DNA of 64,000 bases, from NCBI RefSeq assembly GCF_000003815.2, contig NC_049997.1, forward strand, positions 8,734,431-8,798,430. Reading direction: 5' to 3'. The stretch is from Branchiostoma floridae. Taxonomy: Eukaryota > Chordata > Leptocardii > Amphioxiformes > Branchiostomatidae. Numbering within the stretch: position 1 is the first letter of the stretch; the number at the start of each line of letters is the position of its first letter. The position numbers and the translations under genes were made by a program. The notes beneath the pieces are model-generated. The model saw only the letters and a program-made list of their open reading frames with translations. It searched no databases and had not been told where the DNA came from. Below are positions 2,740 to 55,860 of the stretch, piece by piece.

Positions 2740-3079
2740 TAGCACGCATCTTGAATACGAAATGTTAAAGATTCACCGACTCACGCCTAAAATACATCAT
2801 TCATTACGCCTCAGCATCATGTGCGTCATCTTGAAATATGTTACACTTAAAACATTGTAGATCACACCATTTAACTTTCAGTCATTGATCCTTGATGTGT
2901 CTTTCTTTTACGTAGATTCTTCAAGGCTCGGCATCCTCTGCTCGTCTGTGGTTGGGCAGCATAGCTCATACACCTACGTTTATCCTTGGGGCTAAATGTC
3001 AGCCCCCACAACGTCACTGAAGACGCACGAGTAGATTTATTTACAAAAGAGTGGCGCTTGCGAGAGGTCCAGAGCTGCG

Positions 3080-13772: not shown

Positions 13773-14863
13773 ATTGGAAACACAACAATAATTTCTGCAG
13801 GCCTCAGGTAATTATCGTACCTGCCAACCGCGCCTTCTGGTGTTTTCCCGCTGATTGATCTGACCTGTCTCCTGTGTGCACGCGGAGCGCTAATTGTTCG
13901 GCAAAAATCACGCCTGGAGCCAAACAAGGCCGCACCTTTCCGCTTACGTCGTGGGGAGATCAGACACAGTCAGCCGCCCACAGAAACACCTGCGTCCCGG
14001 TCCCTTCCGGAAGATTTCAAACTCTTGAAGTGACGATGGATCATACCATAAAACAGAGGTGATCTTTTATTACAACTTTCTATTGCCAAAACAGTACATT
14101 CGAAAGAGCCCCATGTCCGTTTTAAATCTCATTTGTTCGTATATCCTCCATAAGATAAGCCTTTGTTTTTCGAGCTGAATATTTATAAGAAGTACCTTTG
14201 CATGATAATCTCACGTGTAAAAATGTTTAATACTTAGAGATTGCTTTGAACAGTTCCCGGTTTAAATTGTCGTAGGGAATCGAACTCGCAAAGTTTAACC
14301 TTTTTTGTTCTCTGGTTACAGGGCTACGTCTAACAAAAACAGCCGCTAGCGAAAGAGGATGGTATGGGACTCAGTTGGATGACGAAACTATTTTCACAAC
14401 AAAAGTTAAAACTTTCCCAAGGCCTGTACTAAAGACAACCTCTGTGAAGATGTGAAGAAGTTAAACTACGTGAAGATACCAGGGATTATACCGGATAAGG
14501 CATGGCCTTAAAACGACAGGGGCTTAGTCACAGGAAACATTAAGCTGGGGGACGCAGGTGTAACTGACAGAGTTTTCAGGACGAACTGTGAATAGTGCGG
14601 TTGCTCATCGTCGGAAATGGCCGTTTAACACTTTACAGGATGTACTGACTGTGTAACAGTGTTGTGAGTTGCCGGTGGTCTGTGTTTTGATGCTGTTTCA
14701 AACGAGAACTACCGTCGAATCGCCTGTAAAAGTACTTATTAGTAGGACAATGGACCTGGCTATTTAGTGCAGAGAAAATTGAGGCCAGCTAACTACAGAA
14801 GTCTGCTGCTTTTAACTCCCACTGGGCTGTTTACATGTAGTACAACTCTAACAAAACACCAAG
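13773..14863. other. Region upstream of the 14.9-kb membrane gene
   Basis: It presumably holds the promoter and 5' UTR of the gene that starts at 14864; no specific element was identified. Several upstream ATGs exist if the UTR is long. Confidence 0.35.
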
Positions 14864-17800
14864 ATGGCGAAGTGTTGTTCAAACTGTTGGTACGATCGTG
14901 CGTGTTGGTTTTTCGGACTTTTCACGTCTATCTTCGGCGGGATCTCGGTTTTCTTCGGGATCGGAGCCCTCATGTACTGGAACAACCACGACTTGATCGA
15001 CGAGTTTGCTATCCCGATCTGGGTCGGCGTTTTTGTAAGTATTTCTTTCTAGAATGTATTCTTAGCTCTGTTCAGACCCTTATAGTTCCTAGTTGAACAT
15101 CGGGCACCAAATTTCCTTGATGTTTTTGTAGCAGAGTATATATATTTTACTGAGAGGGCTTTCTAACACTTCCACATTACCATACTCTATCGAGCTAGAG
15201 GCACCTCCTTGAACACGGGACCTCCATTTTACGTTCCTCACGAAAGACGGACATAGCCAAAACGTGATGCCCTTCCCAAGATTGAACCAGTTACTAATTT
15301 CATGCAGTTTTTACTTATGTTAACATCTATTCTATGTTCCAACGTAAACAGACCCTCAGAAGATCCATATAGTCTAGCGTACAACCAAATTTCTTGACAG
15401 TCCACCACCGGACATACCTACGGCCCCAACTCTATCGCCTTGAACTTTTCATAAACAGATAAAGAACCAAACAAATAAACGAGCTAACTAACGAACGAAG
15501 AAAGAGACAAAAGAGATATTCAATTTGATTTGAGTTTTTGTTGGATGTAAAGTGTACAGCAGGATGTGGTGCTGTAGTGTTATTCATTTACAGATATGTC
15601 GGAAGCAATTTAGTCAAACTTTCAAGAACAAGTTTGGAAAGTTAAGAAGAGTCTGAAGTACAGTAGACTCTATGGTATGGTCACAAACTGTTAACAGAGC
15701 ACTGTAGTCGGCACAGACAGCCATGTGGCTTGTTAAATATGCTAATCACAGGCTTTCAAACGTCCGGAATATGTGAGTCATCTTGACAATTTTATGCACT
15801 GGTGGGTGACCCAAAAATTGCAAACAGACGCCCCCAAAACCTTTCATACTCGTAAAAAACACCAAACCATGCACTACGACATGTTAATCTATCTACATCT
15901 GTGGCATTTGTATAGGTTTAACATTTCTTAGTTGTGTGCACTTCTGTTGTCATTGTTTTGTTCAATCTGTTGTCTTCATTTTCGTTGCCACCTCAAATAT
16001 GTAACAAACCATTTTGCATTGCCTCTGGCGACTGAATATGTGACATGGTTGTCGGGTATATTTCCGCAAGGTGGAAAGACAAGAAATCTGGCTGTACAAA
16101 TCGCAGTTGGTAAATGCCCATTTTTCGCTATAACGTTTTCTCTTTTTTCTCTTGTTAATTTGTAAGTCTTTCGTTTCATAATTCAAACGAAATCATCCGT
16201 GATTATCATCGGACTATTCCTATTTGAATAGCCTCGAGCCTACAAGGGTCACTCAGGCGACTGACCTCATTTGAAATCTAACAATCAAAATATAAATGAT
16301 GCACCTTATTTTTATCCGAACACAAAAACATTCCTACATACAAAACTACATCTTCAGTGTAAAAGAATATTCTTTACGGTAGAGTTGAGTTTATGTGATA
16401 TTTAGTGTTGCACTTATTAACACAAACATCGCGGATATATATCGGGGTATTCAAGCCCAATTCATCGGTGTGGAAGATTCACTTGTCCAACCGGATAGTT
16501 TGGCCTCAGGTTGGTTTATTGTGGTCATAATTGCCATGGGTGTGACACAAAAACTGACCACTAGGCCGTTTGTAGTGGTCAGTTTTGTTTCGTAAGCAAC
16601 GCCTAATCTTCTTCATGAATGACCAATACGTTTGCTGGTAATCGTAAACAATCTTCCATTTTGTTAAAAAGTTGTGCACGAGATAAGATGCAGGTGCATA
16701 CTGCAGTTGATCCAATTCCCAACAGAGGGCGCACTTTTCAATGACAAGTTTTTTTACCCACCTTGAGTTGACGATTAAAAAAGGCGTTGGATCTTGTCCA
16801 GTTTTCATAAGCCTACTCTTCAAACAAATCGTAGCCGTAACCTATCAATAACAATATTGGATAACCTTAACTCCAATATTTTAAGGTATGAATACTTGGA
16901 TATGATAGATTTTGTATCTAATGAAAACTTATGGAATAGATCAGATGTACTAACCACGATGTTTGTTTCCACAGTTGATCTGCATCGGTGGGCTGGTTAT
17001 GGCGAATAACAAATGCAGAAGATGGGAAGACATCAACAAAGAGGTACATTCATCAATTTGCTTGTTTTTATCTTTCTTTGGCTGTGTACTTAGCAACCTC
17101 TCAAATGTTCATGAATTTAAAGATTGATATTATTAGGTTATTCGTTTGTAGTCATAAACGTTGATGAAGGACATAGATAACAGCATTGCAGTAATGAAGA
17201 CGATATGACTATTTCATTGATAATAGGTTTGTTCGTAATGTCGAGCATTACTGTATTAATTTATTACTAACAAATATGTTGTTGTAAAGAATATTGGAAA
17301 AGAGATTTATTGATACATTTGTGGATAATTTTAGCCCTTCTAAACGATATTCCGAATAAAGACACTAGTGACAACGCCAAATTGATAAAAAGACCAGCAT
17401 GATTATACAACAGCCATAATACTAATCCTATCACCGGACTTCAGGAAAGTGTTTGATGTGTGTTTTTCTGTGTGTGATTCTAGTACTTGGAGGAACTTGA
17501 ACTAAAACTCATATCGGAAGAAGAGCCGAAGCCTGTCAAGAGGATGGAAAGTTTCACTCGACTCTTCAAATCCAGGTCCAGGTTGTCTATCCGTAGCGAC
17601 GTTGGAAAGGGTAAAGCTTCTCAGTCAGTCAACCAAGTCTCTGAGAAACAGATCTTCGAGAGACTAGACTTGTTGCGCAAGGAGAGGGAAAATGAAGCCG
17701 CTAGTCGACAAGGTTCTCCTAAATCTAAGTCCCGACACGATAAAATCAGACGACAGGCTAAATACGAGTTGTTGAACGAGTTGGGGGACCAACCGTTACA

Positions 17801-20075
17801 CCTGAGTTCGTCTTGGTACTCCGATCTTAACTGTTTAACGGATGAAGATATGAACAAGTGTCAAGATAACATGAGGAATAAAAGGTTTAAGCCAATTCCC
17901 GATCATATCAATCACGATAGAAACGACAATGGAAATGAACAGCTTGGAAATGAACATTGGTCACCAGATGATCGCTCAAGTAAAAGGCAGGAAAGAGACA
18001 GAAGACGAGGTGAAAAGGGTAACAGAAGACACCGTGATACAGGCAAAGTTGATGAGTTTGAGATGCTAGCAATGGGACAATACAGCGAATCAGCTCATTC
18101 GACCCACAAATCAAAACAAAGAAGAAGCCTACAGAAAAGAAAGCAGGGAGCAGACATTGAGCAAGAGGAGCGGTACGGGGATAATGAAATCCCTATAGAG
18201 ACTGTTTCACGTAGAGCTGAGAGGAGACCAGAGTATAGGAGGTCATTCTCGGAAGGTTATCGTGAAACTGGTAGCATTTCCGACTTCAACGATGAGAACA
18301 TGATTGAGAAGAGGCTCCATGATAAAAGAAACTCTACAGCATCATTGGGGACCGGTGTTGTTCAACATCACACGTCAGGCAACTTTCTAGAGGTGCCTGG
18401 AGTAAGACGAAAGAAGCGGGAAAAGGATCTGTCTACAGATGTGTGGCAACAAGATTCTAGAAGTCTCCCTGGAACTCCCGAAGGAAGGCGAAAGGCAGTT
18501 CGGGAAGAGACAGACATTCCTCTGTACACAAAAAGTCTTCCTGGGACGCCAGAGAGAAGAAGGCGCATCCCCAATCCGTTAGGCTATCACGACCGTTTGG
18601 ACTCTACCACGATTAACTTCTACCAAAAGTCAAGTCGGATCGGAGAAGTCAAGCGGAAATCCCCGAGTCAAAGATCGGTGAACAGCATGGCGGAGTATCA
18701 GAAGCGATCGCTCGATAAGTTTATGATTCCTGCGTTTATGGAACAGCAGCAAGGTATCACGACCGAGCCTGACTACTACACCACAACAAGCTTGGACAGG
18801 AAGCAGCAAAGAGCTCGGCACAGGTCACAGCCTTTGGCAATGTCAGAAAATCATGGTAGCAGCATTGACTGTATGGATGGCAGTAGGCGACGGTCTATCC
18901 CTGGCATCATCATCTCACAGGACGCACTCGATGGGCATTTAAACCCCGACGACTCTATCCAAAACATGAATGGATCACAGCAATTTGCTTCTCCCAATAC
19001 TTACAGGCGAATGTCTGTACGACCAAAAGTGTCGACCCGCGCTGACTACATATCATTAGGTTTATCAACTCCTACTTCGAGGTCGCCTAAACAGTCTCCT
19101 GCTCAAAGACGTAGGAAGACTGAACCAGCGCTGGCAGGACTCGAGTCCTTAAAAACTTACAGGGATTCCCTCGAGGCAGATGGATACACCAGTGCGGAGT
19201 TAGAGGCAGACATCTATGACCACATGGTAAGAGAAAGGATGAGAAAGTTCAAGGGAAACATCACAGAGCCCAAAGTAATTTTCCCGACCCGCAAACGCCA
19301 TCGCACTGCACCAGCGCCGGTGTCGCCTGCAACACGCAGGAGGTATTTAGATGACATGCACCAGTCTCCTTTCTTTGGTCTACAGGATGAAGACGATGAC
19401 ATGAATGATGCGCATGCCTACAGCAAGTTCGGCTCGAGGAAACAGAGCCTTCCACCATATTTGGACCGAAGGCAGCGAAGAACGTCGGGAAAACACCGAA
19501 AACCAAGCATTCCATATCTCGAATCGTACTCTTCTGAATCAGAGGAAGGGGAAGAGGCAAGCCTGCTTGGCTCGAGAGTTACGCTGAATTCTCGCGGCGG
19601 CAAGAACTCCCGCACAGTCTCTCCAACGGGCTCTCTGGAGGGTATCCTGAGGAGAACCGGTTCTCCACCGGAATTCAAGATGGCGGCGCGCAATAAGAAA
19701 GCAAAGCATCACGGGAGACATTTCGAAGGCGGAATGATCATGTCCGAACCCCGTAAGAAGAAGGTTCGTTCTCCAAAGTTAGTGTCAGACATGTATGAGA
19801 CGTCTGGGCAAGAAAACAGCGCGACAGAAAGCGAAACGTTCCCGCCAACAACATGGGAGACAGAGTATTCAACAGGGAAAAAGAACAACGACCTCCCGAA
19901 GAGCGTTTACTCGGAAGAAGACGAAATAAGGCTTCTCTACAACTCAAATAATGAAGATGCCCCGTATGTGAAAAACAATGACGGGAAAGTGGGCAACTCG
20001 CGGGCGCACGTGCTTCTGAATGATGACAAGGAAGGTGTGATGGTAGTCGTGGTGAAGAAGAGAGACACTTTATAG
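14864..20075 (+). CDS. Two-pass membrane protein with long disordered basic cytoplasmic tail (unrecognised family)
   Basis: Three exons by splice signals: 14864-15034, 16975-17043 and 17484-20075, all joined in phase 0, giving 943 residues. A Cys-rich start (CCSNCWYDRAC, possible palmitoylation) leads into TM1 (about residues 14-39), a short loop and TM2 (about 48-66). TM2 is interrupted by intron 1 after WVGVF. The remaining ~875 residues are hydrophilic, rich in Arg, Lys, Ser and Glu, and look disordered. They contain two SLPGTPE.RR motifs (residues about 407 and 431) and an acidic SSESEEGEE cluster. I recognise no catalytic domain. The start is the first ATG of an ORF preceded by CACCAAG. 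AATAAA signals lie at 20184 and 20706. Intron positions and the TM cap match the gene at 31.3-34.2 kb, so the two are probably tandem paralogues with different tails. A scaffold or adaptor role at a membrane is only a guess. Confidence 0.75.
15035..16974 (+). other. Intron 1 of the 14.9-kb membrane gene
   Basis: It runs GTAAGT...CCACAG, phase 0, inside TM2. It contains a near-perfect 16-17 bp-armed hairpin at 16547-16588. No other feature was recognised. Confidence 0.7.
16547..16588. repeat. Short hairpin (inverted repeat) in intron 1
   Basis: ACAAAAACTGACCACTA pairs with TAGTGGTCAGTTTTGT across an 9-10 base loop. It could be the footprint of a small transposon or form an RNA stem; no gene-like processing signals were recognised. 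Confidence 0.7.
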
Positions 20076-21835
20076 TTGACTTAAGTTGTGAAAGGAAGGG
20101 GGTTATAAGTTGGACTGTACAAAATTGCGTTAGGTTATCTGTCACCAAATTTTTACCAAATTGTGAATGTTTGAACATTGAAAAATAAATAGAAAAAAGC
20201 AAATTGCAAATAGATTGCAATTTTCTAGCGCAATTTTGCTCAGTCCAGTGATATAACGAGTCGTAAATGTACCTAATTGTATATACCATAAGGGAAAGGG
20301 GACAAATTGCAATAGCTGTCATTGCACAATTATTGCTGTTGTGATAATCGAAGGATGAATTTTAGGGCAGGGTAATAGTATTGGACTATTACTACCTCAT
20401 ATACAGACCTTATACTATGTATTGGTCTCAAAGTGATTTAAACTTTAAGTTAGTTATGTTGTCAGTCTGTTCAAAGACTGTATATTGATGTGTATAAAAT
20501 CCTTGGTCAGTTTTGTTACTAGACTGCTCTTCACTATGATGTTGATTTCTTTTATATTTTCTCGATAGATAAACCTGGGATGGTAATGATTTTCTCACAA
20601 TCTAGAGTTGTGTTTGATTATTTATTATTTTTCAGCACAAGTATATTTATGGTGCCTTATTCAATGAGGGCAATTGTATCAACGATTTAGATTTCAAGTG
20701 ACAGTAATAAACTGGTCTTAAGTAGGGATCACAGCCTAATTTAAGACTACTTAATCTTTTTTTAAATGCTTTTATTGCATTTAACTTCTCCTTACCACAA
20801 ACTATGTGTCTTCCGGGACAACACATAATGTGGTTATGATATTCAATGATGGTATAGTTGTTTATTCTTCATCTCAGTAAAAAGGTTATTCGTTTTCATA
20901 AGGTGTCCACGACTAGTTCATATTCTTTATTTTTTTTGTCTTGGTCAGAAATATGGCATAGTTCATATTTTTTATAATTTTTTTGGCTTGGTCAGAAATA
21001 TGGCATTGGCATCTATTAATGGATAGCTCGAAAAAAACTCCATCAACTCTGGCATTCCCTCTGTGTAATATGGATGAAAGCTCAGTGTGCAATGATCTCG
21101 CACTAACCAGTTCTAAATTTATAATCACTGAGCTTCTACCGACTAGAACTGCAGTACTTTTCAGTTCCACTGTGGGGCGCTTACACGCCTTTATCGTGGT
21201 GTATGCATCAAAGGAACGATCATCTATCAAACGTACTGATTGAACCTGTAAACTTTCGCGGAAAAAAGAAATTCTGCTAAGAGTAAGATGACTTCGATGA
21301 ATGTACGCAATTGCGCAGAGACTTCTCTTGAGTTACTCTCCCCTGACCCGGTGAAGACCCTACTATTCTGAGCACTTCAAGCGGTTAACCTGTCAAACAA
21401 AACACCATCTCGTCCAACGAGATCGTTACGCACTCTTCACCAGGTGCTTTTAACCGTTGACCTCCAGGTGTTCGCTAAGGCATCATTTATCATTTCGTAA
21501 CGGTTAAGTTGTGAACAGAGCTTTCTTTGCAGAATCAAGAAAATAGTCTTACTTACGACAGGTTTAAGAAAATTGATAGTCATCTTTGGAAAGGTCGCAT
21601 AGGCCATTCCTTGAAGGGGCGTGCTTGAATAGTGACAGTGTCGCTATGTGATGGCATTAAGTCCCGATTGTGTGAAAAGACTATCTTTAAAACAAGTGCT
21701 TTAAAAAAGCTGGCATTTTTCCAATGTTTGCGTGTGTACACGTTTTTTTTCTAGTTATTGGAATGTGCTGAAACTATTGTTTATATTAAATGGATGTAAA
21801 AAGGAAACAAGAACAATTTAAAATCACCCTCCCCT
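20076..21835. other. 3' UTR and intergenic DNA
   Basis: AATAAA motifs at 20184 and 20706 are candidate polyadenylation signals for the preceding gene. A 45-47 bp tandem duplication lies at 20916-21005 (TTGGTCAGAAATATGGCAT twice). No other gene is seen. Confidence 0.5.
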
Positions 21836-22090
21836 GGACTCGATCCCGGACCGTAGCTCTGCAAATCAGGCTGACGTCAGAGGTATTTGTGTAGTGACCC
21901 CTGAACCCGGAAGTCACTTCTCTGCATCATAGCGCACTTTTCAGAAAATGATATCTCAGCAATCGTATACCCCTGCTTTAACATTTTTACATTGTCACGG
22001 TCTCCATAGTACATACTACAAATCTGGTAAGTTAGAAGGTCCAGTTCTTTTTCGATAATACAGGGCGATCAATGAAAAATCGTGGAATTT
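21836..22090. repeat. Dispersed repeat, copy 1 (tRNA-like end)
   Basis: It starts with a segment whose reverse strand reads GTCCGGGATCGAGTCCAGG, similar to a tRNA B box. It continues with GCAAATCAGGCTGACG and CCATAGTACATACTAC, and ends with CGATCAATGAAAAATCG. A related copy is at 24008-24260 in the same direction. Confidence 0.5.
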
Positions 22091-24007
22091 CCATTTTCGC
22101 ACTGGAAATCCTACTAATGTCATAGGGTTTCCAGTCGAAATTGTTTTGTACCCAGGGGAATCAGAACATTTGTGTTCCCTAATAGAGGGTCTTGATTTAT
22201 GAAAAATAAAAGTTACAGAACAAAAATCGGACCTTCCGTTCCAGAGATATGGCCCTTTAAAGTTGCTGGGCCATGGGCGGTGTCCGCAGGTGTGGCGCCA
22301 GGTGTGAAAATCGCATTTCTAATTAGCAATAATTAAGAAAGTAAAAACATTGTGCCACTCAAAAGTTCTTTTCTGCACAGTCCAAGTAGTATTTTGTAGC
22401 AATCAAGTAAAGATAAGATGTTTATTTGCCTTTTTCTTTCACTACAGGTGAGGTCAACCTGCTGAAAATTAAGTTTTTTCAGCATGGCACATGCACAGCT
22501 GGAAAAGTGGCCAATTATTTCCAGATGACCCCTTTTTGAAGAGCGATAATCAATAAACTGTTCATCCTATAACTAAGATATTTCAGATATTGGAAATATG
22601 TAGTAGATTCTCTTAACACAGTTTATTGCAGACATTCTAGAGACATGGTTACGAGATTATGTGTAATCAAAAATACTAATTTTTAACATATCTCAAAAGG
22701 TCAAAGGTCATCGGCACCTGTCACTTATATAAGTCCACATAAAAAATCAACATTCTTCTCTATCTCAGTGACAAGTATCACATGTTTAATATAACAGAAT
22801 AGAAATAGTTTAGATAATTTCCACATCAATTATGCAAATTAGCTTCTGATTTGCATAATTAATATTTAATTACATGAAGCATCACTTAATCTATCTACAT
22901 ACCAATAATCATGATGATCCGTCAACCCCTTCTTGAGTTATTCCCTTTCACAGTCTGACCATAAGCATTGAATATCAGCATACCTTACTACTAAAGGGTT
23001 TTGGCTAATTCTAAATTTGTTATCAAAACTATCACATTTCACCAGGAAATACTACTTTTACGACATCTAATGACCAAAAGTATATAAAAATATTACCTAT
23101 GAACCATGACCACCTGACTTTGTAACTGGTTTATTCAAGTTTATTGAACAATTGATAATTCTTTGACATTACAACATATGTTTGAAAAGACTTGGTAGCT
23201 CCTCTTCTAAGCTGCACAGCTTTGAATGGTTGATACATTGTAATTCTCCCTCTGTGCCATCTCAATTTCTTCTATGATGTTGCAGGTGCTATTCCCAATG
23301 CAGCATCTTGCAAATCTGAAAACTTTTAACATTGGAAATATCAGCAAAAACCTCTATGCCCTTGATATCACATTCAATAACAAACACAACTTGCTATGTT
23401 ATTGATTTTTTGGATCTTACAAGGTAAAAATTGAACTTCAGTGGTGATCATCTCAACGTAAATATGCTCACGTTGGACACATTTACAAATGATGTTTCCT
23501 TTCATGAAGTTGGTGACAAAGAAAACAAAAGTTTTGCGTCTCAAACCTGAAACAAACGTGTCCGAACATACAATGTATCTACACTTATAAAGGCTATCTG
23601 TATACAATTAATGAATATCAATACGCTAATTATTTACATGGAAACGAGAATATTTTGATAATTATGGACCCGCCTAACTAAATTTATATGCAGGGTCCTA
23701 CGGCCGTAACTCACGGCCCGGACTCGGCACACCACACGGAGCGAGTAGCACATGTTGAACATTCACATCGCTAACTCACAACAAACCTACACATGTTATA
23801 CATCATTTTAAAGCTTAGAAACCGCTTGTTACACACATGGATGCAACTTTTTGAAAAAATAAGACATCAATGGTGAAAAATGCCATCTAAATTTGCAAAC
23901 TGGAGGTAAACCACCTTAAAATTGCGGTACAAGAAAGTTTCACGTACCAAATTGTAGCTTGTTTTCTTGTCTATCCAAACCTACCATATATGGGTTGCTT
24001 CCAAATA
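22091..24007. other. AT-rich intergenic DNA between two repeat copies
   Basis: The two flanking repeats could bound one inserted element of ~2.4 kb, but no protein domain was seen between them. Confidence 0.35.
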
Positions 24008-24260
24008 AGGCTGAGATGCAAATCAGGCTGACGCAACGCCATGCCCGCAGAGCGCTCGAACAGGTAAACGCGGAAGTGACTTTCCCGTCTCGCGAGGCAT
24101 TTTCCCGAAGGCCATATCTCAACAATCTTTTATCCCCTGCTTAAAATTTTTACATTGCCAGGGCCTCCATACTACATAGTACAATTCTGGTAAGTTTGAA
24201 GTTCTAGGCCTTTCTCAATTTTACACGGCGATCAATCGAAAATCGCTACACGCACGGAAA
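24008..24260. repeat. Dispersed repeat, copy 2
   Basis: It matches 21860-22090: GCAAATCAGGCTGACG, CGGAAGTGACTT, CTGCTTAAAATTTTTACATT, CTCCATACTACATAGTAC and CGATCAATCGAAAATCG, with many substitutions. Confidence 0.55.
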
Positions 24261-25979
24261 ACACCACCGCCGCACGCATGAATATTAACTAAGTCGCAAA
24301 GGAATCTGGGACAGGCTATATGTAACTGTTATATATATATACACGATTTATTTGGAAAACATTTCATTTTTATGAATTGGTAATACAACGTTAAAATGTA
24401 AGAGCAATAATTTGATTATATGCTGCATCAATCTTAGGAATATCATACTTCATTCATTTAATCTAATCAAATATTAGGCCCCATTACGGACCACAGACAA
24501 TGACTCACGACAGAGCTTTTAACTTGTATACAAATGCATTGCAGATTTTGAACAGGTCCGTTCATCTCAACATCACAATATCACAACATCACTCCATCAC
24601 TCCATCACAACGGCAACTATTCTGGTCTCAGGGCATTTTGCCGCGAAGGCGGCAAAATGCAAAAATCAAACTTGGAAGATAAAATCTTGTCTGGCGCATC
24701 CAAAATAGACCTGCTGTAGATGTACGTACGTTTGGCTTGCTAATTTCATGGTCTAATGAACTGTCTTCACCTGAATGTCTGTCTTCTTCTCGATTTAGTG
24801 TTGAAATATTCAAACACGTTGGCAAGACTATATAGTATGTTGCTTTTTTCTATTTTCGTACTCGCCTATCTATTGTATCTTTATAGGAAAGGAGTGCTTT
24901 TGTGAGACTGAAAATGCGTGTTTTACTGTGTAAACGATATGCTAATCATCACAAACCACTGACTGATTCACCAAATCAAGACTATACGACCGTGAATGAC
25001 CTTACAGGACCTGACAACATCGCTTCTGATTGGCCATTCACTCTGCCCTTTGACCTTAACGATCAAAATTTGTGTGGCAAATTTAACTGGATAATCTTCT
25101 TTGTTCGATGCTGTGCCACCTTTTATAGGGGACTGACTCGGGCAAAGTTCTTGTTCCTGTGAGGTAAAGCCTGTGCCTAAGAACAACATTCTCAATTCGT
25201 GAGTTGTTTTAATTTGATCGCCATGTTAGTAACTCCATAGTTAGTGACAACAGTCTAGGTGGGAAGAAGACAATGCAGTGCATTTGTTCATCCATGTGCA
25301 CTTCGGAATTTAAATCTACTCCCCGGACAACCCTTTGGTTAACATTTCAAGGTTGGTGCACTTTGTATTTTATCTTCTTTTACGAATAGGACTCCCACAG
25401 AGCACTGTACCATACTTTGAGGACTTTGATAAGTTTTTGAAAACTTTTCCTTACGTTTTACTGAACTAGTATTGTAGTCACGTAGCCAACTTGGCCGAGG
25501 GAGGTGAAACGCTACCAGCCGCCATTTTAAAACTATCACTAAGTGGCCACGTTAAGTACTCCAAAGTTTGTTGCTATGACGATAGCAAGAGTTGTATAAG
25601 AGCTAAATACGAGAAAATCACACCACTGGCAGCGTAAGATATATAGTCAAAATAACTCTGTATCTGACAGAACCATATTGCTTAGGGACAAGGATACAGG
25701 AACTGTAGTGAACTCAGGTCACCTTGACTGAGAGCACCAAAGACACGTCACGAAGCTTAGAGGATTTGTGGCGTACTTTAACACATACAGAACCCTGATA
25801 CAGGGATTTTAAGCAATGAATCCGCAATGCACGGCGCCACTGAACATTCTTACGGCTTAATCGACTGAAGGAAGTCTCGTAGGCGACCTTGTAGACTGTC
25901 AATCCTCTGCTAAAAGAACAGATTGTGTACCGACTGAAGATATGACACACGAGTAGCAGTGATCTCGGTTGACGTAAGT
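24261..25979. other. Intergenic DNA, nothing recognised
   Basis: A short AT dinucleotide run lies near 24330. A single AAAATGGCGGC (YY1-type) site occurs at 25518-25528 upstream of the tandem array. ORFs are short and unsupported. Confidence 0.4.
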
Positions 25980-27735
25980 GTTGTGATGGTAGCTTTGAGT
26001 TAAACTTTCAAGCATGAAAGCACTTGAAATCAGCGTTAAGTATTACATTTTCCTGTGAATAATTATATGCCTTTAGGTTCAAGGCTAGTCTGTGATGCTC
26101 TAATCAACTTCTCTCAGTATGAACTTTTTGTGTAGCTCACTTTGAACAATATTTCAACTCGTGATAAAACGATACGACTTTCGCCGCCATGTTTTTTTGT
26201 AGTTGAAGGTCAGTCATATTTAAGCTCTTGATGAAACGATAAAAGCTATGAAGCCGCCATGTTGTCTCTTTGTTTGGGAGATTTGAGATAAACTTTCCAG
26301 CCATGAGAAACCCTTAAAATGAGCCTTGCATAACTTTTCCTGTGAACAATTAGATGTCTTCAGGTTCCAGGATAATCTATGATACTCTAATCAACTCTTC
26401 TTAGTATAAAAATCCTGTGTCACTTTGAACAATCTTTCAACTCATGATTATGCGATACGACTTTTGCCGCCATTGTTTGTTGTACTTGACGGTCAACATT
26501 AGTCGAGCTTCTGATGAAACGATAAGAGTGATCAGTAAAGCCGCCATGTTGTCTCTTTGTTTTGTGGCTTTGAGCTTTCCAGCCATGACATACCCTTGAA
26601 ATGAGCCTTGCATAACTTTTCCTGTGAATAATTAGATGTCTTCAGGTTCAATGCTAGCCTGTTATACTCTAATCAACTCTTCTTAGTACAAAATCCTTGT
26701 GTGTAGTTCACTTTGAACAATCTTTCAACTCATGATTATGCGATACGACTTTCGCCGCCATGTTTTTTGTTGTACTTGACGGTCAACAATTAAGTCGAGC
26801 TTCTGATCAAACGATAAGAGTGCTAAAGCCGCCATGTTGTCTTTTTGTTTTGGAGCTTTGAGCTTTCCAGCCATGAGATACCCTTGAAATGAGCCTTGCA
26901 TAACATTTCCTGTGAACAATTAGATGCCTTCAGGTTCAATGTTAGCCTGTTATACTCTAATCAACTCTTCTTAGTAGAAAATCCTTGTGTGTGATTCACT
27001 TTGAACAATCTTTCAACTCATGATTATGCGATACGACTTTCGCCGCCATGTTTTTTGTTGTACTTGACGGTCAACAATTAAGTCGAGCTTCTGATCAAAC
27101 GATAAGAGTGCTAAAGCCGCCATGTTGTCTTTTTGTTTTGGAGCTTTGAGCTTTCCAGCCATGAGATACCCTTGAAATGAGCCTTGCATAACATTTCCTG
27201 TGAACAATTAGATGCCTTCAGGTTCAATGTTAGCCTGTTATACTCTAATCAACTCTTCTTAGTAGAAAATCCTTGTGTGTGATTCACTTTGAACAATCTT
27301 TCAACTCATGGTAAAACGGTACGACTTTCGCCGCCATGTTTTTTGTTGTACTTGAAGGTCAACAATAGTCAACTTCTGATGAAAAGATAAGAGTGATAAA
27401 GCCGCCATGTTGTCTCTTTGTTTTTGGAGCTTTGAGCTTTCCAGCCATGACAATATTACCCTTGAAATGAGCGTTGCATAACTTTTCCTGGAACAATTAG
27501 ATGTCGCCAGATTCAAGGCTATTCTGTTATGCTCTAATCAACTTCTCTTTTGGCATTTACTTGTGTCTAGTTCACTGTGAACAGTCTGTAGTTCACTGTG
27601 AACAGTCTGCCACAATACAACTTCCGCCGCCATTTTTTTGTACTTGAAGGTCAACAATAGTCCTGATGAAACGATAAGAGTGATAAATCCGCCATATTGT
27701 TTCTTTGTTCGGGACTGCCGGGACTAAAACTTTTA
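25980..27735. repeat. ~288-bp tandem array, about six units, with paired YY1-type motifs
   Basis: Landmark CTTCAGGTTCAA-type sequence recurs at about 26070, 26349, 26637, 26926, 27214 and 27503. The two central units (about 26735-27310) are identical at a 288-bp offset. Most units carry two GCCGCCATGTT sites (reverse AACATGGCGGC), giving ten exact matches to AANATGGCGGC: 26183, 26253, 26540, 26754, 26828, 27042, 27116, 27330, 27401 and 27626. Outer units are more diverged. ORFs of 64-71 codons here repeat with the unit and are not supported as genes. Confidence 0.9.
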
Positions 27736-28830
27736 CAGCAGAGAGTTAACTTCACAAGGTCAGTATGGGGAAGCATTACGTACGAGTATTGAGCTTAGAT
27801 ATCATGTTATTACAGAAAGGATCAACAAAGAATAGTCTGTGTTATGAAAATATCTAAAGTTGTGCCTTTCCAACCTGAATCACAAAACACGTAGTAGAGA
27901 TAGTAAAGGAAGATATGAATCAAGGCAGTGACTATTCTCTTTGTGATATTTATTTGTATCTGAAAGGACTATAGATATGGTATCAAAGCCATAACTTTCA
28001 GGTTATCAAGGAATATTCCGATCATAATAAATGTTGTATCGTACAGTAAGAGTCGATAACCATTAGCACAATGCTCTCAGGGTTTTTGAACATACTGAAT
28101 AGCCAAACGTAAAAACACACAAGACTGCATGTGACCTTTTAAGAAACATTGGACTTCTTTTTAGTTAAACAGTTCAAATATCTTGATTTGAAGTGGATAA
28201 TTGGGACAAAGTAACATTTAACGACCTTTACTGAGTAATCACTTACAAATTATCACAAAAAGTGTCCTTGAGCAACCTTAATTGTCCACTGATTTAAAAG
28301 CACAGCATGTTAAGGGCACGTGTTTGACAAATTGTCCTAATTTGTAATATATAGTCTTGCCTTGTCCCTGAATAATAGAAACAGTATCAAAACAATTGTC
28401 AACAGTGAATACTTTTGTGCATAGAACCTGACTGAGAAAAAGAGAAAAAAAGGCAGAGAGAGAAGCCAAAAAGAGGAAGGAAACGCACCTCGGGTATGGG
28501 TGGTATTACCAGATCAACTTGTCCTTACATTAAAGATAATATTGCTACAACTTTTGTTATTTATTCTCGCGGCATCTCAATATGGATTGGTAGCCCTACT
28601 ACTTTTGAAAGTTGATTTACAAGGGGGTTCACCATACATGACAAGACAAAACGTGTTACATTCAGTCAAAGTTAAGACACCAGTGGACAACATACAGTAC
28701 ATAACAAGCGTGAGATTCAAAATCATTGTCCATCTAATTTCACCAAGGAGCGTTTATCAGATAAAATCTATTTGATTCATACATTGAATGGGACTGTGAT
28801 TTATAACTGGCCGTTTTGGTGATATAAACA
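27736..28830. other. Intergenic DNA, nothing recognised
   Basis: AT-rich. A 91-codon hydrophobic ORF at 28500-28775 has no splice or homology support. Confidence 0.4.
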
Positions 28831-28831
28831 G

Positions 28832-29345
28832 TTGTTTTTGCAGAAAAAGACATATTATTGTAAAGATTAAAACATGGCTACATTTTCAAATTGCATGTAC
28901 AGTTATTTAGAACTTGTTGAAATTTGAACAACTATCCATAGGCTACAACATGTCTTACAATGACTGACTACTGGTTAAAGCAGATACACCATTTTCAAAT
29001 TGTATGCACAGATTTCCATTCATTAACTATTTTGAACGTAGCTCATTTTATTCAATACATTCCAATGGCAAAATGTTGAAATATGAACAACTATCCATGG
29101 GCTACAAAATGTCTTCCAATGACTGGCTCCTGATTGTAGCAGGTACACCACTTTGCTGGGTCATCAAAGTGACTGCAGTTTCAAATTGTATTTGCACATG
29201 TACAACTTTCCATTCAGTAGAACGTAGCTTATTTACATAAATTCCTATGACCAAATGTTGAAATATGAACAACTATCCATAGGCTACAAAATGTCTTACA
29301 ATGACTGAGTCCTGACTGTGGAAGGTACACCACTTTGCTGGGTCA
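28832..29345. repeat. Degenerate 160-180 bp tandem repeats, three units
   Basis: GAACAACTATCCAT, GGCTACAA.ATGTCTT and AATGACTG recur at about 28928, 29087 and 29267, with TTTCAAATTGTAT and ACCACTTTGCTGGGTCATC parts. Confidence 0.75.
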
Positions 29346-30266
29346 TCGTGCCCCTTTGAGGGCCAAAGTTCGTGTCCCAAGGCTGTACGCCATGTTAATA
29401 ACAGCCAGGGGCTGACATGTAACATGTATAGAGGTGTTGTGACTGACAAGGTTGTGGTCCGGGGTTGCCCCACTTGACACTTAGTGATCGATTATTAGCC
29501 TACTGACAGTACAATACACCTTGGAGTGACACACATCTGTACTTTCTTTAGCTGACCTTCGTATACATGGCACGTGCATGTATTATTTTTCTACCAACAA
29601 TCATCACCAAGGACACTGGATTTGCTAACACCTACTGAAGATATGACGTTATTACACTGTAGTATGTATGAGGTATACGACAGACAGTAAGGGGCTCCAA
29701 AAAAGCGTTGTGAATAAACCTTTACGACTGAATATACGACTTAAATGATGTTGTTAATGAGATATTAACATACATCGCTTACCGATTTTTTCAACACTGA
29801 TTTGTTTACCTTTTTTTTACACGCCTACTATTAGTGACGTTGACATGTATGAAAAAAATGCATATAGTACTACGTTTGTAACATAGTACGAAACTCAATA
29901 CCGGTACAGTATCTCACTAACTTCCTAATTATTAGATACCTTAGTGTGACGTAAAACAAAGAACGGGTAGTGTACCTTTCTTCTAAAGCATTTTGTTCAG
30001 TTGGATGTGGCACATTAAACACCAGTATGACTTACTTTTGCCGTGGAACCAAGATGGCAGCTGTGTCACCGGAATGTTGTCTAACAACTATTTTAGGTCA
30101 TAGGTCATCTGGGATTAGACGAGAAATGACAAAAAAGCCGGGGTGGGGGGGGGGGGGGTACAAATCAAGCTAACACAAACATTTAACTTTAGGAGAAAGA
30201 CTGGGATGTATTGTATTATATCGGGAAGTACAGGAAAAGTAACACCCCTGTAAAATGTTTTCCCAA
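29346..30266. other. Intergenic DNA, nothing recognised
   Basis: It contains a G-run at about 30143-30158; no gene is seen. Confidence 0.4.
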
Positions 30267-30366
30267 NNNNNNNNNNNNNNNNNNNNNNNNNNNNNNNNNN
30301 NNNNNNNNNNNNNNNNNNNNNNNNNNNNNNNNNNNNNNNNNNNNNNNNNNNNNNNNNNNNNNNNNN
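30267..30366. other. Assembly gap (100 N)
   Basis: A 100-N placeholder gap of unknown true size. Confidence 0.95.
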
Positions 30367-30428
30367 TTAGGAGGTTTGACGCAACAAATTTTATAGCACT
30401 GTGTACAGCATAAGCTACAATTAGATAA

Positions 30429-30639
30429 TATACTGTACATGCAGAAATGTTCGCGGTGGATTAATGTTCGCGGTTTTCGTGGCGACCGCTTCACCGCGAA
30501 TTTAAAACCACCGCGAACATTTTTACTTAACAGTAAGCAAGTGTATGGTGCTACCGCGAACTTAAAACCACCGCGAAAAGTCCATTTTCCCGCTACCGCG
30601 AAATTAAATCCCCGCGAACTTAAATGCATTTACAGTATA
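30429..30639. mobile_element. CGCGAA-rich inverted-repeat element
   Basis: The ends TATACTGTACATGCA and TGCATTTACAGTATA are inverted. Inside, GTTCGCGGT/ACCGCGAAC units recur at least six times in both orientations. It is a MITE-like element with strong folding potential and a very high local CpG density. Confidence 0.75.
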
Positions 30640-31181
30640 GCAATATGGGACAGTAGGGATTGGAATCCAATCCATTTGTCATTCTCCTGGGAGAGATTGG
30701 AATTTCAATCATTCCTAGGGGGATTGGAATTCTGCCAAAATGCTAAAGCCTCTGTTGTATTATTTTTTTAAATGAACAATTTAAAGTTTAAGCCATTGAC
30801 TAAGGTACTGTTATACACCAGTAAGAAGTATACTGCATATTCTTGAGATCTAAGTGTCTGAAAAAATATAAAACGTCTGCTGTAGTGTTAGAAATGTGAA
30901 GTTAGCAATAGACTAAATATACTGTTTAAACTAGTGAGTAATGTACAGCCCATTAAAGTGATAAAATGATAAATCGTTTGTTGTATAATTGTATTACGAT
31001 TATTTGTAAAGAAGAAGTCCTTGAAGGGACTTGATAAACTAAAAAACAGTTTGGAATAACGTTACTTGGGAATAAAGGAATGATATTCAACGTAGAAGAA
31101 AATATCATATTAAGTTTAGGTAAAGATTTCAACTGGTTTTGAAGCTGAACTTTAACATTCTGTCTGTTTTTTTATTTCCAG

Positions 31182-31263
31182 CGTTACAAATGGCATCAGG
31201 TTTACATATTAAGTCAAGTATTCTTGGATTTAAAACTTGAGGATCTCTCACCGATAATTCAAG
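31182..31263 (+). promoter_or_regulatory. 5' UTR segment with putative splice acceptor and 17-codon uORF
   Basis: A pyrimidine-rich tract ending TTTCCAG at 31181 looks like a splice acceptor, so the coding start probably lies in the second exon of the transcript. The segment contains an upstream ORF at 31190-31240 (ATG GCA TCA ... ACT TGA) that ends 23 bases before the main ATG, which could dampen translation. The upstream noncoding exon was not located. Confidence 0.4.
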
Positions 31264-34239
31264 ATGGCGGACGAATGTGACACTTCTGACGTGGAGGTCA
31301 AAGGTGCTGAGAACGAATTAGAAACGATGAACCGTAAAGAGCAGAAACCAAATATTACAGATAATACTTTACCTGCTAAAAACAGCGAAAATAACGAAAC
31401 TTCTATTGACATCGAGAAAGAAAACGAAAACAACGAAGCTCAGGAAACTCAACCCTTGCTCTCGATCTCACAAAGTCAAGTCGTCTCCGAGGGGACCAAA
31501 GTGATCACAACGGTTTACGAACTTTCCGAGGAAGAAGCAACCAAACCAAAGAAAAGACGTACTTGTAAGGAGTTCTTCTGTGCCTGGGATGACAGAAGGG
31601 CCTATTATTTTGGCAGAAAGTTAGGTATCATCTTTGTTTACTTGGGAATAGCAATGGTGATCGCAGGTATCGTGCTTGTCTGGATCTCAACCGTGTGGAA
31701 ACCGGAAAGGCCGTTTGCGATGATGATCTGGATTGGAATCACGGTAGGTTAATAGAAAAATTGGTAAACACTTAAAACACAAAAAATAGCAATGTTTAAA
31801 ACCCAGTTAACGCAAATGTGGTGTCAGTAGACCTTTAATGACGTGGAGGTCAAAGGTGGTCAAATGTGTCATGTGAAGTCACGTTGATTCAAACATTTAG
31901 CGTGCGAAGTCTGTTTCCTCTTTCCACCAGGACGGCGCTCTTGTCGTGCTCTCTTTGCGACCTGACATTTTAAACCGATCGCTCAACGAATTCTACAGAA
32001 AAGATACGAATGAACCTTTTTACGCTTTGCGTGTTATGTCGTACTTTCATTAATACTAACATATTTTGTATGAATCAGATACATTCATATTTATGTCACA
32101 GTAAGAGCTCAGCGCAGCGCTTCTAGTATGTTTGTGTGTGTGTGTGTGGGGGGGGGGTATGCAGTGTTTTTGATGTTCCATACTAGTTTCAAGTAAATAT
32201 CTATTTTTTATGCTTTGTTTCAGGTTATCATAGTTGGAGCGTTGATTATTGAAAACTCCAACTGGCAGAAGGAGATTGACAAGGCTAAGAAACGGGTATG
32301 TTGTGTAGCGTTGTAAAATAAAACTACAACATAAGACAGATAACAATTACTCAAGCAACTATCTGGACAAGAATTTGGAAAGGCGATAGAGTTGAATTTC
32401 CCTAAGACGTATCTATTTGTATAAGTACCTCATATTTGTCGTATGCAATAACCAAAATGTTCAACCTTCAAAGCTATATATATTCTAAGGTACGCATTGC
32501 CAAATACAAGAAAGTAAAACTTTTTAAGATGGTCCATATTTCGTATGGCATTATAATACCTTATTTAATCACTTGATGAAACATGGTATGGTTCTGTATC
32601 AATATATTGCATCTATCTTAAATTTGTTAAAAATAATTGCTCAATTAGTATTAAAATAAATTAACAATGGATTTTAAATTTCTAACAGAACATTGTGTAT
32701 GCACAAGAGAAGCTCAAGGAAAAGGCAAAAGAACCCAAAATGTTCTTCGGAGCAGCTTTCAATGACATCGACATAACGGACGAAAGTGGACAACCTGTTC
32801 ATCTAACAGAAGAGCAAGTACGAAATATGGTCAGCGATTTGGTGGGACCGGACGCCATCCATTCTATCTATCATATCGAAGGACAATGGAAAGTTTACTT
32901 CCATACCAAACCCGCTAGAGATGAGTTTATGAGCAAATCGTTGATTTACAGGGGCAAAGAGGTTAGAAAGTATGTCATTGAGTCCAAAACAGAAGAGGGG
33001 TTGGCTGCCCTATCTGAGTTGCACGCTATGGAAGCATTGGAAGCCCAGAATACGACCTTATACGGCTACACGTTTGAAGAAAGGGATGTCGTTGATGATG
33101 ATGGTAATATGGTGAAATTAAAAGAAGATGAAGTTTGTGAAAGTATTCTTAGTACTGACATTGATCCAGATAAGCTATACGCTGTGGAGAACATACGAGG
33201 GGAGTGGAAAATATATGTCTACGGACAAACCTCGGGGGAAAAACTTCTAGAGCAAGGTCTTATAATCAGAGGACGTAGTATTAGACTAAGTACAATAGAC
33301 TACAGCAAGATTGTCCAGCCTCCGAAGGTAAAATTGAGAAAGTCAAGCACGTCGGGCGCAAGCGGTGAAAAGGACATGTCAGGTGTGGCCATTCTGAAGA
33401 TCCTGAATCTACCTGTTGTTGTTGAAGACCGTCTAGTTATCAAGAACTTGCAAAAAGCAGGGTGCAAAGTGAAAGGGGCCATACAGAAACAGAGAGTCAA
33501 GCGTGAGTACGCAAAGGCATCAGTGTACTTCTTCAACGGCATTCGCTTTGTACGTGTCCGTATTCCTAGCATAAAGCGGTTTCCTCTGAAGCAGGTTTGG
33601 GACGGATACTTTGTCAAACTAGAAGTGGTCAAAGTTTTCCCAGATAATGACACCTCCGAGCAAAACGCCAGGCTAGATTCGGCCATTTGTGTTCTGAAAG
33701 TGGAAGACAAAGCCACAGATGCTAGCAGAAAAACAGAAGTCGTGACGACAGCTATTTGTCACGTGAATAATGAAGCAAAAGAAAACCTTACACTACCGTC
33801 CTTCTCAGACACTGATGGTGCAGGGGAGACTTACGGAGCCGATAAACTCTCACGAGAAAGTGTGAGAACTTCTCTGCATGAACTTGACATGGGGACTGAT
33901 CGTACGGATGGATTAGATGCAGGTGAACTCTCGCAAGAGTTTACGAGCCCTTCTTTGTATGACCTTGACATGGACCCAAACCACATACATACTGAGGAAT
34001 TATTGGTAGAAAATGAACTCTCGCGAGAGAATACGAGATCCATATCTGGCGATCTCGAAGGAGCGGTTGGTGGAGAGGAGTCAGAGGATTTGAACATTCC
34101 GGAAATGGTGAAGAGAGCCAATGGTGATTCCGGAATACAGACTCCGGAATCCGGATCGAGAACTTCCGTTCTGGGGTCACAGATGTCAAACCAGGAAGGA
34201 GCACGACTGACTCAAATGCGACAAGAATATCTCGTGTGA
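31264..34239 (+). CDS. Two-pass membrane protein with repeated alpha/beta (RRM- or gag-like) cytoplasmic domains
   Basis: Three exons: 31264-31743, 32224-32295 and 32689-34239, phase 0 at both junctions, giving 700 residues. The acidic, Asn/Glu-rich N-terminus (~115 residues) is followed by TM1 (about 120-142), a short loop and TM2 (about 152-172), with intron 1 inside TM2 after WIGIT. Exon 3 encodes two clearly related ~80-residue units (about 202-281 and 308-387). Each has an acidic D-x-x-G segment, then a [GE]xWK[VI]Y strand and a [KR]..L.[YI]RG[KR].[VI]R end. A third, more divergent unit starts near 417. The spacing suggests ferredoxin/RRM-like folds as in gag-like or ZCCHC-type proteins, which is inference. 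A Ser/Glu-rich tail has three ELSRE-type repeats. The start AAGATGGCGGA resembles a YY1 initiator element. The closest relative in the window is the 14.9-kb gene. Confidence 0.75.
31744..32223 (+). other. Intron 1 of the 31.3-kb membrane gene
   Basis: It runs GTAGGT...TTTCAG, phase 0. It carries the family B MITE copy 3 and a short GT/G run near 32134-32158. Confidence 0.7.
31917..32129. mobile_element. Inverted-repeat MITE, family B copy 3 (intronic)
   Basis: Left CTCTTTCCACCAGGACGGCG, core CGATCGCTCAACGAATTCTA, right arm CAGTAAGAGCTCAGCGCAGCG then TTCTAG. It is more diverged than copy 1. Confidence 0.65.
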
Positions 34240-35293: not shown

Positions 35294-36270
35294 AGAATTT
35301 GGGCTTTATGCACAGTTGGATAACATTATGGGTACCTGATATAAACGTTGAAATGAAGCACTTGCTTGGATACCATTCCTGTCAAATGATATCAAAATTG
35401 TACTCCACGTCATATCTCAAACAAACCATGAAATAAAAGCTACATCATGAAAAGTTTGATATTTTCTCCAAGGAGCTACATTGTATAAAACTACTACTGA
35501 GGTGATGAAGCATCCAATGAGTGTATCATATTGCTGTGTGCATTGATCATTCACACGAGATGGTGTTAGGATGCTGATAGCATGATAAATCATACCTTGA
35601 CACCTCCTGAAAGACAGAACGTAACCATTGATCCCTCATAACAAGGACCAGATGTCATGCTCGCACCTACTGATCCCTTCAAACGACGCCATTAACTTCA
35701 CCTAACTAGATTCTAAGGCACTAAGATCCATCATTTAATCATCGGCGCCTTGGGGATTCTAAGTTCCTCAGAATAGATCCTCATATGTCTTTATTGCCTT
35801 GAAGATCAGCAAGCGTCTGTTAGGACATTACACTGTCTCACGTTACTCACGTTTGAAATAATCATTGTACCCGACCGCGAGGTGAGAGCACTGTCTTTGG
35901 ATCCATGGAGCGTACGTATGTACGATAATGCAACTTGGTGCAAATTTTTTTAACTTAAGACTGCTACTTTGTGGAGTTTTTACATGCTACATAGACGTTC
36001 ATTTGTGGAAGCAAGGGTGTATAAAAACCTTTGAAGGTCCTTACATCAAATCCTAATAAATCCATCAAAATATATCATTACATGTACAACGGTGCAAAAT
36101 CTAGTAGGGTTCATCGTCCGTGCCTCTTCGTTTTGGTCATTTTTTGTTTTTTCAATTTCAAGAGTCTCTAAATTAAGGTTACATCTGGAGCCGTACGTGT
36201 GTCTGGCGGTAGGTTGTTCCAGACATTGGGTCCACGGTTTTCTATCGATCTTTTGAAGGTCTCTCATTTT
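35294..36270. other. Intergenic DNA, nothing recognised
   Basis: No gene or transposon recognised. Confidence 0.4.
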
Positions 36271-37078
36271 TATATTTCAGCCATACCATAGGTATGGTGA
36301 AATATATTGTATTCGTAATGTTTCTTTCTTTCTTTCTTTCTCCTGTCAAATCTTCAAATCGAATCAACTCCGCCATTTTTTAACCGATTGACTTGAAATT
36401 TGGCACAATGGTAGAGTAAGCCAATACCCCTAGGTGTTTTTTTCATTTTTTTCATATCTGCCTTTAAAATGATTTTATTGAGGTTTTTGTCAATTTTTAT
36501 GTATATTTCGGGCTCCTGTACCCTGGTATTACAGCCGAATGACATAAAATTTGGTACAGAGGTGCCTTGATCATATGCTCACCTAGATTCAATAACAGTT
36601 TTGGCAGACGGTACAAAGAAATGCTTAATTTTGCGATTTTTGGCCATTTTTTGACCAAAAAAGGACATTTTTGGCTCCCGTAGCCTCGTTTTACAACCAA
36701 ATGATCTGAAATTTGGTATAAAAGTGCCCTTCAATTATGTGCACATAAATTCAATAAAAGTTTTCCCCTACGGTACAACAAAATGCTTAATTTTGCGATT
36801 TTATGGCCATTTTTTGACAAAATTTGGACATTTTTGGCTCCTGTTCCCTCGATTTACAACCTAATGACCCGTAAATTGGTAAAGGGGTGCTCTAGATATC
36901 TATTCAAATGACCCATGTATAATTTTTGGCATGGACCACTTTAAAATGATATATTTTGGATTTTTTTGGTCATTTTCCAATGGCCAAAGGGGCCAACGAC
37001 CTCAAGGCCTATTGTTGCATGATGGAGATGGCTGAAATATGCTGTATTTGCTCTCAAGCAAATGTCGGCCTTTCTAGT
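36271..37078. repeat. 0.8-kb dispersed repeat, copy 1
   Basis: It begins with the palindrome TTTCAGCCATACC-AT-AGGTATGGTGAAA and a TTTC tetranucleotide run. It then has three or four ~160-bp sub-units (GGCTCCTGT.CCCTCG.TTTACAACC; AATGCTTAATTTTGCGATTTT). ATATTTCAGCC at the left and GGCTGAAATAT at 37030-37040 are inverted ends. It is repeated at 37962-38755. Confidence 0.85.
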
Positions 37079-37961
37079 AAAAGTTTGTCTTAACAACATT
37101 TTTTACAAAATGAGGTAGCCTCAAAACGTGGCACGTTCCATGCCGAAACTGACCCCTTAAGTGTCCATCAAAGGGTTTAGATCGAAGCCGGACCGCTGGT
37201 AGGTCATCTCTGACGTACATGCGCCTGGGGTCAGAATTACCGGCCAGCTTGACATCGGTAAGTCTTCCTTTGATAGCGTTTGACACGGCCAGATCTCAGA
37301 GCTTGAGCTGGCCGCGTGAGGGTTTAGCGGCTACTCTTTCTAGATTAGAGAGAGGAAGGACCCGGGGGGCCGGTATGACATGAGTGTGACGCGCATAATG
37401 TAGGGCAAGAGGCCTGTAATAAGACGCGTGTGCCATGAAAAAAACTCGAGTGCACTAGTTGCTAGAAAGAAGGTCAAGGTACCCTTGAAACTAAGGCAAA
37501 TAAACGTACTACAAATTGTTAAGTCATTTTTTCCCTGCCTGTTAGTTCATAGTACATAAATGCAAAGTTAATGCAAACCGTTACATTGTGAATTTTCCTT
37601 ATAAACATGGAAGTGATAAAAATTTAGAACGCAGAACACAGTACCGGTTCTAAGAATCTGCCAGGGACAGGTCTATGGTTGTTTGTAAACTATCTTTTCT
37701 GTCATACATTTCAATATTCCTTTGCAAATGTTTGTAATACCTGACATAAACGACACGTTATGGGATGATGGTTGTCAGAAGTGATTACTTATTTTAATCC
37801 CTAAAGGGGAAGTCTCAAAGGACTACAGCACTTTGGCGGCGTCGCTACGTTCTATATCGGATTTATGTTGTCCTTGACTTTATAATTGGTATATCATGCA
37901 AAACCTACTAAAAGAAAGAAGAACAAACAAAGTGGAAAAGGATTCGGCTTTATCGATTTAT
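37079..37961. other. Intergenic DNA between the twin repeats
   Basis: No gene is recognised in this stretch. Confidence 0.4.
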
Positions 37962-38755
37962 TATATTTCAGCCATACCATAGGTATGGTGAAATATATTG
38001 TATTCGTAATGTTTCTTTCTTTCTTTCTTTCTCCTGTCAAATCTTCAAATCGAATCAACTCCGCCGTTTTTAAACCGATTGACTTGAAATTTGGCACAAA
38101 GGTACAGTAAGCCAATACCCTCAGGTGTTTTTTCCATTTTTTTCATATCTGCCTTCAAAATGATTTTATTGAGTTTTTTGTCAATTTTTATGTATATTTC
38201 GGGCTCCTGTGCCCTGGTATTACAGCCGAATGACATGAAATTTGGTACAGAGGTGCCCTGATCATATGCCCACCCAGATTTAATAACAGTTTTGGCATAC
38301 GGTAGAACAAAATGCTTAATTTTGCGATTTTTGGCCATTTTTTGACAAAAAAAGCACATTTTTGCCTCCTGTACCCTCGTTTTACAACCAAATGACCTGA
38401 AATTTGGTATAAAAGTGCCCTTCAATTATGTGTGCATGAATTCAATAACAGGTTTTCCATACAGTAAAACGTAATGCTAAATATTGCGATTTTATGGCCG
38501 TTTTTGGACAAAAATTGGACATTTTTGGCTCCTGTTCCCTCGTTTTACAACCAAATGACCCGAAATTTGGTTAAGCGGTGCTCTAGATATTTATCCAAAT
38601 GACCCATGTATAATTTTTGGCATGGAACACTTTAAAATGATATATTTGGGATTTTTTGGGGTCATTTTCCAATGGCCAACGACCTCAAGGCCTATTGTTG
38701 CATTATGGCTGAAATATGCTGTATTTGCTCGCAAGCAAATGTCGGCCTTTCTAGT
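37962..38755. repeat. 0.8-kb dispersed repeat, copy 2
   Basis: Same direction and order as 36271-37078, with roughly nine in ten bases shared by eye. Small indels remove about 14 bases. Confidence 0.85.
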
Positions 38756-55712: not shown

Positions 55713-55860
55713 CTTTATAATGGTTGTTCCTTTGGGTAGCTCAGGTAATGTTGTGACTGCAACTCTTTCGTGGCACAGACTGTCGTCCAAGTCAGTCAGG
55801 TGAGACTTGAAGGTTAAAGGTCAGAAGGGTTCATTTATCATTAAACCACTCCATATATGG
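55713..55860 (-). promoter_or_regulatory. LRR-Ig copy 1 promoter and noncoding leader exon
   Basis: The donor on the minus strand is AAAG|GTGACT, with the exon ending at 55713. Upstream at 55851-55860 is CCATATATGG, which fits both a TATA box and a CArG (SRF) element CC(A/T)6GG. The segment aligns with 59673-59829 in front of copy 2. The transcription start is not known; about 25-30 bases downstream of the box (near 55825) is expected. Confidence 0.5.

Follow-up and report, generated by a model that had tools for sequence, protein, structure and literature searches.

Two tandem amphioxus genes that look like uncharacterised two-TM paralogues with divergent tails

In this study, we found that two co-oriented genes, lying 11.2 kb apart in a window of 64,000 nucleotides from Branchiostoma floridae (the whole stretch of DNA analysed, by whose first letter all positions are counted), look like uncharacterised two-TM paralogues with divergent tails, and we file them as such rather than as a wholly new kind of system. 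The two predicted proteins share a membrane cap encoded by two exons, and their giant third exons are unrelated by sequence. To this picture the present analysis adds that the repeated unit in the third exon of gene 2 is predicted, by structure modelling, to have an RRM-like fold. The present standing of the pair is that of two gene models in one window, and among the matches listed from a search of open-licence PMC titles and abstract starts the pair is undescribed, which is no proof of its being unpublished.

Gene models

Both genes are predicted, from splice signals and open frames, to consist of three exons (Table 1), of which the third is a single giant uninterrupted exon in gene 1 and in gene 2 alike. 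All four introns have GT...AG ends, every junction of both genes is in phase 0, and the spliced frames remain open until their stops, giving proteins of 943 aa (gene 1) and 700 aa (gene 2). On hydropathy only, each protein has two adjacent hydrophobic segments, the second of which is split by the first intron after WVGVF in gene 1 and after WIGIT in gene 2. The three-exon plan and the position of this split are as the preliminary description had given them, and the paired gene models are confirmed as a real feature that had been well read. Gene 2 differs in having an N-terminus of ~99 residues, acidic and polar with a basic stretch at its end, and in one further, weaker hydrophobic stretch at residues 417-435, within the third segment of its exon 3, which is likewise assigned by hydropathy only.

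Table 1. Predicted exons of the two genes and segments of gene 2 exon 3, with their positions in the window
Feature	Position	Strand	Description
Gene 1 exon 1	14864..15034	+	start codon, WYDR motif before TM1, TM1, short loop, start of TM2 (ends WVGVF)
Gene 1 exon 2	16975..17043	+	69 bp, 23 codons: remainder of TM2 and charged linker
Gene 1 exon 3	17484..20075	+	863-aa tail; stop codon at 20073-20075
Gene 2 exon 1	31264..31743	+	N-terminus, WDDR motif, TM1, loop, start of TM2 (ends WIGIT)
Gene 2 exon 2	32224..32295	+	72 bp, 24 codons: remainder of TM2 and charged linker
Gene 2 exon 3	32689..34239	+	516 aa: two RRM-like units, third segment, acidic polar tail
Unit 1	32728..33000	+	modelled RRM-like beta-alpha-beta-beta-alpha-beta fold (pLDDT 91, pTM 0.79)
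Unit 2	33043..33315	+	28% identical to unit 1; putative fold by that similarity
Third segment	33364..33660	+	sequence unrelated to units 1-2; model (pLDDT 40) too poor to read

A codon-model scan with a cut-off of 9, in which exon 2 of either gene is too short to receive a score, finds three large exons, namely gene 1 exon 3 and gene 2 exons 1 and 3. The third exons of both genes score high, as members of the training set of the model, to which gene 2 exon 1 likewise belonged. Reading frames that stay open for 863 and 516 codons are themselves improbable by chance. No stretch on the own strand of gene 1 exon 1 reaches the cut-off, and this exon is therefore predicted from its splice site and start codon and from its resemblance to gene 2. 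The strand opposite this exon (14863-15049, minus strand) scores 9.6 and 12.6 on the same model. Between the two genes, the scan yields one stretch of 39 codons only (24007-24123, score 9.1). Also between them, at 26048-27587, is a tandem array in which a 288-bp unit is repeated ~5.4 times (88% matches).

The remainder of the window contains several other features. Upstream of gene 1, at 3035-5639, there is a rhodopsin-type GPCR gene of at least two exons. At E <=1e-10 it matches 13 distinct PDB sequences, of which the prolactin-releasing peptide receptor (E 3.9e-18) is nearest to its second part. A single repeat element occurs as two near-copies, at 36270-37060 and 37960-38750, each containing a 162-bp unit repeated in tandem ~2.3 times, the consensus being nearly identical in both. 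On the minus strand, a LINE-like element at 47532-50141 contains two adjacent ORFs that meet at 48620/48621: one encodes a reverse transcriptase (PF00078), and the one upstream of it has endonuclease matches that fall short of the curated cut-offs. Also on the minus strand, at 52313-58445, are two LRR-Ig ORFs that are 64% identical (470 of 731 aligned columns) and whose differences include gaps in the N-terminal LRR region. No Rfam matches were obtained at gathering scores.

The shared membrane cap

The preliminary description had claimed a conserved two-exon membrane cap, and both the sequences of the two caps and the positions of their introns argue for it. Comparison of cap with cap by BLASTP gave 22 identical residues out of 69, with an E value of 2e-8 that refers to this single comparison. 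Because two-TM segments resemble one another by composition, shuffling was confined within the N-flank, TM1, loop, TM2 and C-flank of both proteins, and the cap score was equalled by 2 of 20,000 such topology-keeping shuffles, or by 1 of 5,000 when part of the exon 3 linker was included. The one control sequence, taken from TM1-2 of the window's GPCR, reached scores of 31 and 41 with the caps, compared with 85 for cap against cap. Residues common to both caps include W-x-D-R just upstream of TM1 and I-W-x-G in TM2. Furthermore, intron 1 falls at the identical aligned codon in both genes and the positions of intron 2 are at most one codon apart, a coincidence expected at ~1e-4 (~1 in 9,000 trials) if introns are placed at random under a simple independent uniform model. 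The likeness of the caps goes beyond hydrophobicity, contrary to the outcome that would have refuted the earlier reading, as judged by topology-keeping shuffles of one sequence per side and not by a true profile comparison. The caps are taken here as homologous.

No convincing third member of the cap family was found in the window, where tblastn with both caps returned their reciprocal matches (E 0.005 and 0.019). Searches of viral and genome contigs, collections containing no animal genomes, were also made with the caps and with the units of gene 2. None of the pattern matches in viral contigs was confirmed, whether from the unit alignment (269 matches), the gene 1 cap (5) or the cap alignment (8), and 1 of the 39 pattern matches of the cap alignment in genome contigs was confirmed. 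This match (L001), an ORF with bacterial neighbours in a Flavobacteriia MAG, encodes what we presume to be an oxidase/nitric-oxide-reductase-like membrane protein, and is taken as a chance hydrophobic match rather than a relative of the caps. Among PDB sequences, gene 2 exon 3 had no match at E 10, and the best matches of the gene 1 cap (E 0.73), of the cap profile (E 0.085, a sugar transporter) and of the unit profile (E 0.39) are not credible.

The third exons

Local alignment of the two third exons gave a score of 42, which was equalled by 671 of 1,000 shuffles, and the claim that they are unrelated holds at the level of sequence. No cap similarity was detected beyond the exon 2/3 junction either, since 2,055 of 5,000 shuffles were as good as the pattern Y..E..KLK...EPK seen in the first 24 aa of exon 3.

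Exon 3 of gene 1 had been described as disordered and basic, and its composition is disorder-like and mildly basic. Its 863 aa comprise 27% hydrophobic residues and have a net charge of +30, with 14 [ST]P sites, 12 RxxS sites and two SLPGTPE motifs. From residue 101 onward the Uversky index of gene 1 is below zero in 15 of 16 fifty-residue blocks, the remaining one (block 551) being at +0.02, and it is above zero in the two blocks before residue 101, which contain the cap.

Exon 3 of gene 2 had been described as built from repeated alpha/beta units. Two such units of ~85 aa each can be demonstrated, their similarity being matched by 0 of 5,000 shuffles, and the first of them was modelled; the third segment does not belong to the repeat as far as its sequence goes. 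The best structural neighbours of the unit 1 model are RRMs, with identities of 6-22% among the matches listed, and Foldseek gave no match with E <=0.001 for this model. Unit 1, as modelled, has the fold that defines the RRM superfamily, and unit 2 would share it by similarity alone. The Pfam scan of the units gave no RRM family among the matches listed. Gene 2 also contains no canonical RNP1 octamer, its best octamers agreeing with the consensus at 3 of 7 defined positions, and in units 1 and 2 the RNP1 positions 3 and 5 would be occupied by Q/E and K, given that consensus and an assumed register. RRMs without canonical RNP1 may still bind RNA.

The third segment was considered as a third RRM because of its sequence pattern: by eye, it shows ILNLP, which resembles RNP2, and a strand SVYF. 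A profile comparison gave this reading no support, nor did shuffles, of which 4,508 and 2,668 of 5,000 were as good, nor a single-sequence model with a pLDDT of 40.

Discussion

We consider with moderate confidence that genes 1 and 2 are ancient tandem paralogues of one two-TM protein, which have kept a hairpin cap while their cytoplasmic tails diverged, with no swap of tails demonstrated. The cap would be an N-in/C-in hairpin, because in both genes the loop is short and carries less positive charge than its flanks, and this would put the long tail on the cytoplasmic side of the membrane. The charges of N flank, loop and C flank, counted in windows of unequal length, are +6, +1 and +4 in gene 2, and +1, -3 and -1 in gene 1, where the pattern is weak. 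After duplication, the tails may have diverged through fast evolution of a disordered giant last exon, with the RRM-like units gained in gene 2 or lost from gene 1. The tail of gene 1 could then act as a flexible scaffold regulated by phosphorylation, and that of gene 2 as a docking arm tethered to the membrane. By analogy with the channel OSCA1.2, tandem RRM-like units lacking canonical RNP1 would be more likely to engage protein partners or to dimerise than to bind RNA. If transcripts and orthologues confirm the models, the pair would be a clean case of tandem paralogues that retain an anchor while their cytoplasmic parts diverge, and gene 2 would combine tandem RRM-like domains with a membrane anchor in one protein, for which, to our knowledge, there are few precedents.

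The same facts may be read as exon exchange, in which a mobile two-exon cap with a phase-0 intron downstream was joined to different giant third exons, and we regard this as possible though unlikely. The caps are conserved while the third exons show no relationship in sequence, and the detectable similarity stops at the phase-0 junction, as the shuffles over the start of exon 3 indicate. However, the comparison involves just two members, similarity would fade in a disordered tail in any case, and no copy that could have donated the units of gene 2 was found elsewhere in the window, the search for tail copies covering the gene 1 tail through its first 44 residues. Moreover, duplication together with a fast last exon and the gain or loss of units explains the tails, and therefore no exchange is needed. 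With two members, exon exchange and old duplication with tail divergence are inseparable. Hence, from the preliminary description of a conserved anchor displaying exchangeable modules, the conserved cap and the unrelated tails can be retained, but not the exchangeability, for which two members are too few and the facts of which old duplication with tail divergence explains equally.

In a broader form of this idea, the cap would be a portable two-exon anchor of a family carrying unlike modules, and the RRM-like tandem, which might have come from a retroelement, would hold RNA or RNP partners at the membrane; this we think improbable. Slightly less probable again is the capture itself, in which the gene 2 units would come from ORF1 of a type I LINE, placed as an intronless exon behind the cap. 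The units do lie in tandem within a single uninterrupted exon, Jockey-superfamily type I ORF1s have one or two RRMs in one frame, upstream of three CCHC domains in the Jockey lineage (PMC4120745), and a LINE-like element is present in the window at 47.5-50.1 kb. Nevertheless, the CCHC knuckles carried by type I ORF1 according to that text have no counterpart in gene 2 exon 3, where the one pattern searched (C-x2-C-x4-H-x4-C) had 0 matches, a membrane anchor is not among the ORF1 domains which that text names, and neither an RRM nor a retroelement family is among the Pfam matches listed for the units.

Lancelet gene models reportedly often err in domain architecture (PMC4967905), so that one or both third exons might be separate genes that are not spliced to the caps; nevertheless, the same three-exon plan, with GT/AG ends and open phase-0 frames, was found independently in both genes, and such an error is very improbable. 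Convergence of unrelated two-TM proteins, alike merely as membrane helices are, accords with the weak and unspecific Pfam matches of either cap, none of a family above its cut-off, but is scarcely credible in view of the topology-keeping shuffles (2 of 20,000), the intron positions and phases common to both genes and the W-x-D-R motif that both have before TM1.

Comparison with known families

As paralogues with a common cap, the two proteins were compared with several known families. Pfam gave nothing above any curated cut-off for the scanned pieces of both genes. TM1-TM2 of the gene 2 cap matched the start of the CD20-like profile PF04103 (E 0.0081; 16.7 bits, against a cut-off of 27.9), but unrelated Pfam families score as well with this cap, and PF04103 is absent among the Pfam matches listed for the gene 1 cap. 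CD20-like/MS4A proteins have four TM segments, whereas the gene 1 and gene 2 proteins have two adjacent ones. Membership in MS4A fails on the number of TM segments as well as on score, and similarity of this kind in invertebrates, consisting of short stretches shared with unrelated membrane proteins, has been rejected before (PMC2826416).

The OSCA/TMEM63 channels offer a precedent for a cytosolic RRM-like domain beside membrane helices, and we claim no sequence kinship with them. In OSCA1.2, a channel with 11 TM helices unlike the two-TM protein of gene 2, the helices of the RRM-like domain serve the dimer and its RNA face is occupied, and RNA binding is deemed unlikely (PMC6265326).

Neither TMEM200 nor TMEM51 is represented among the Pfam matches listed for either cap, in a scan whose HMMER filters drop weak matches. 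These proteins combine a two-TM cap with a long cytoplasmic tail, and their likeness to the present pair is one of layout only.
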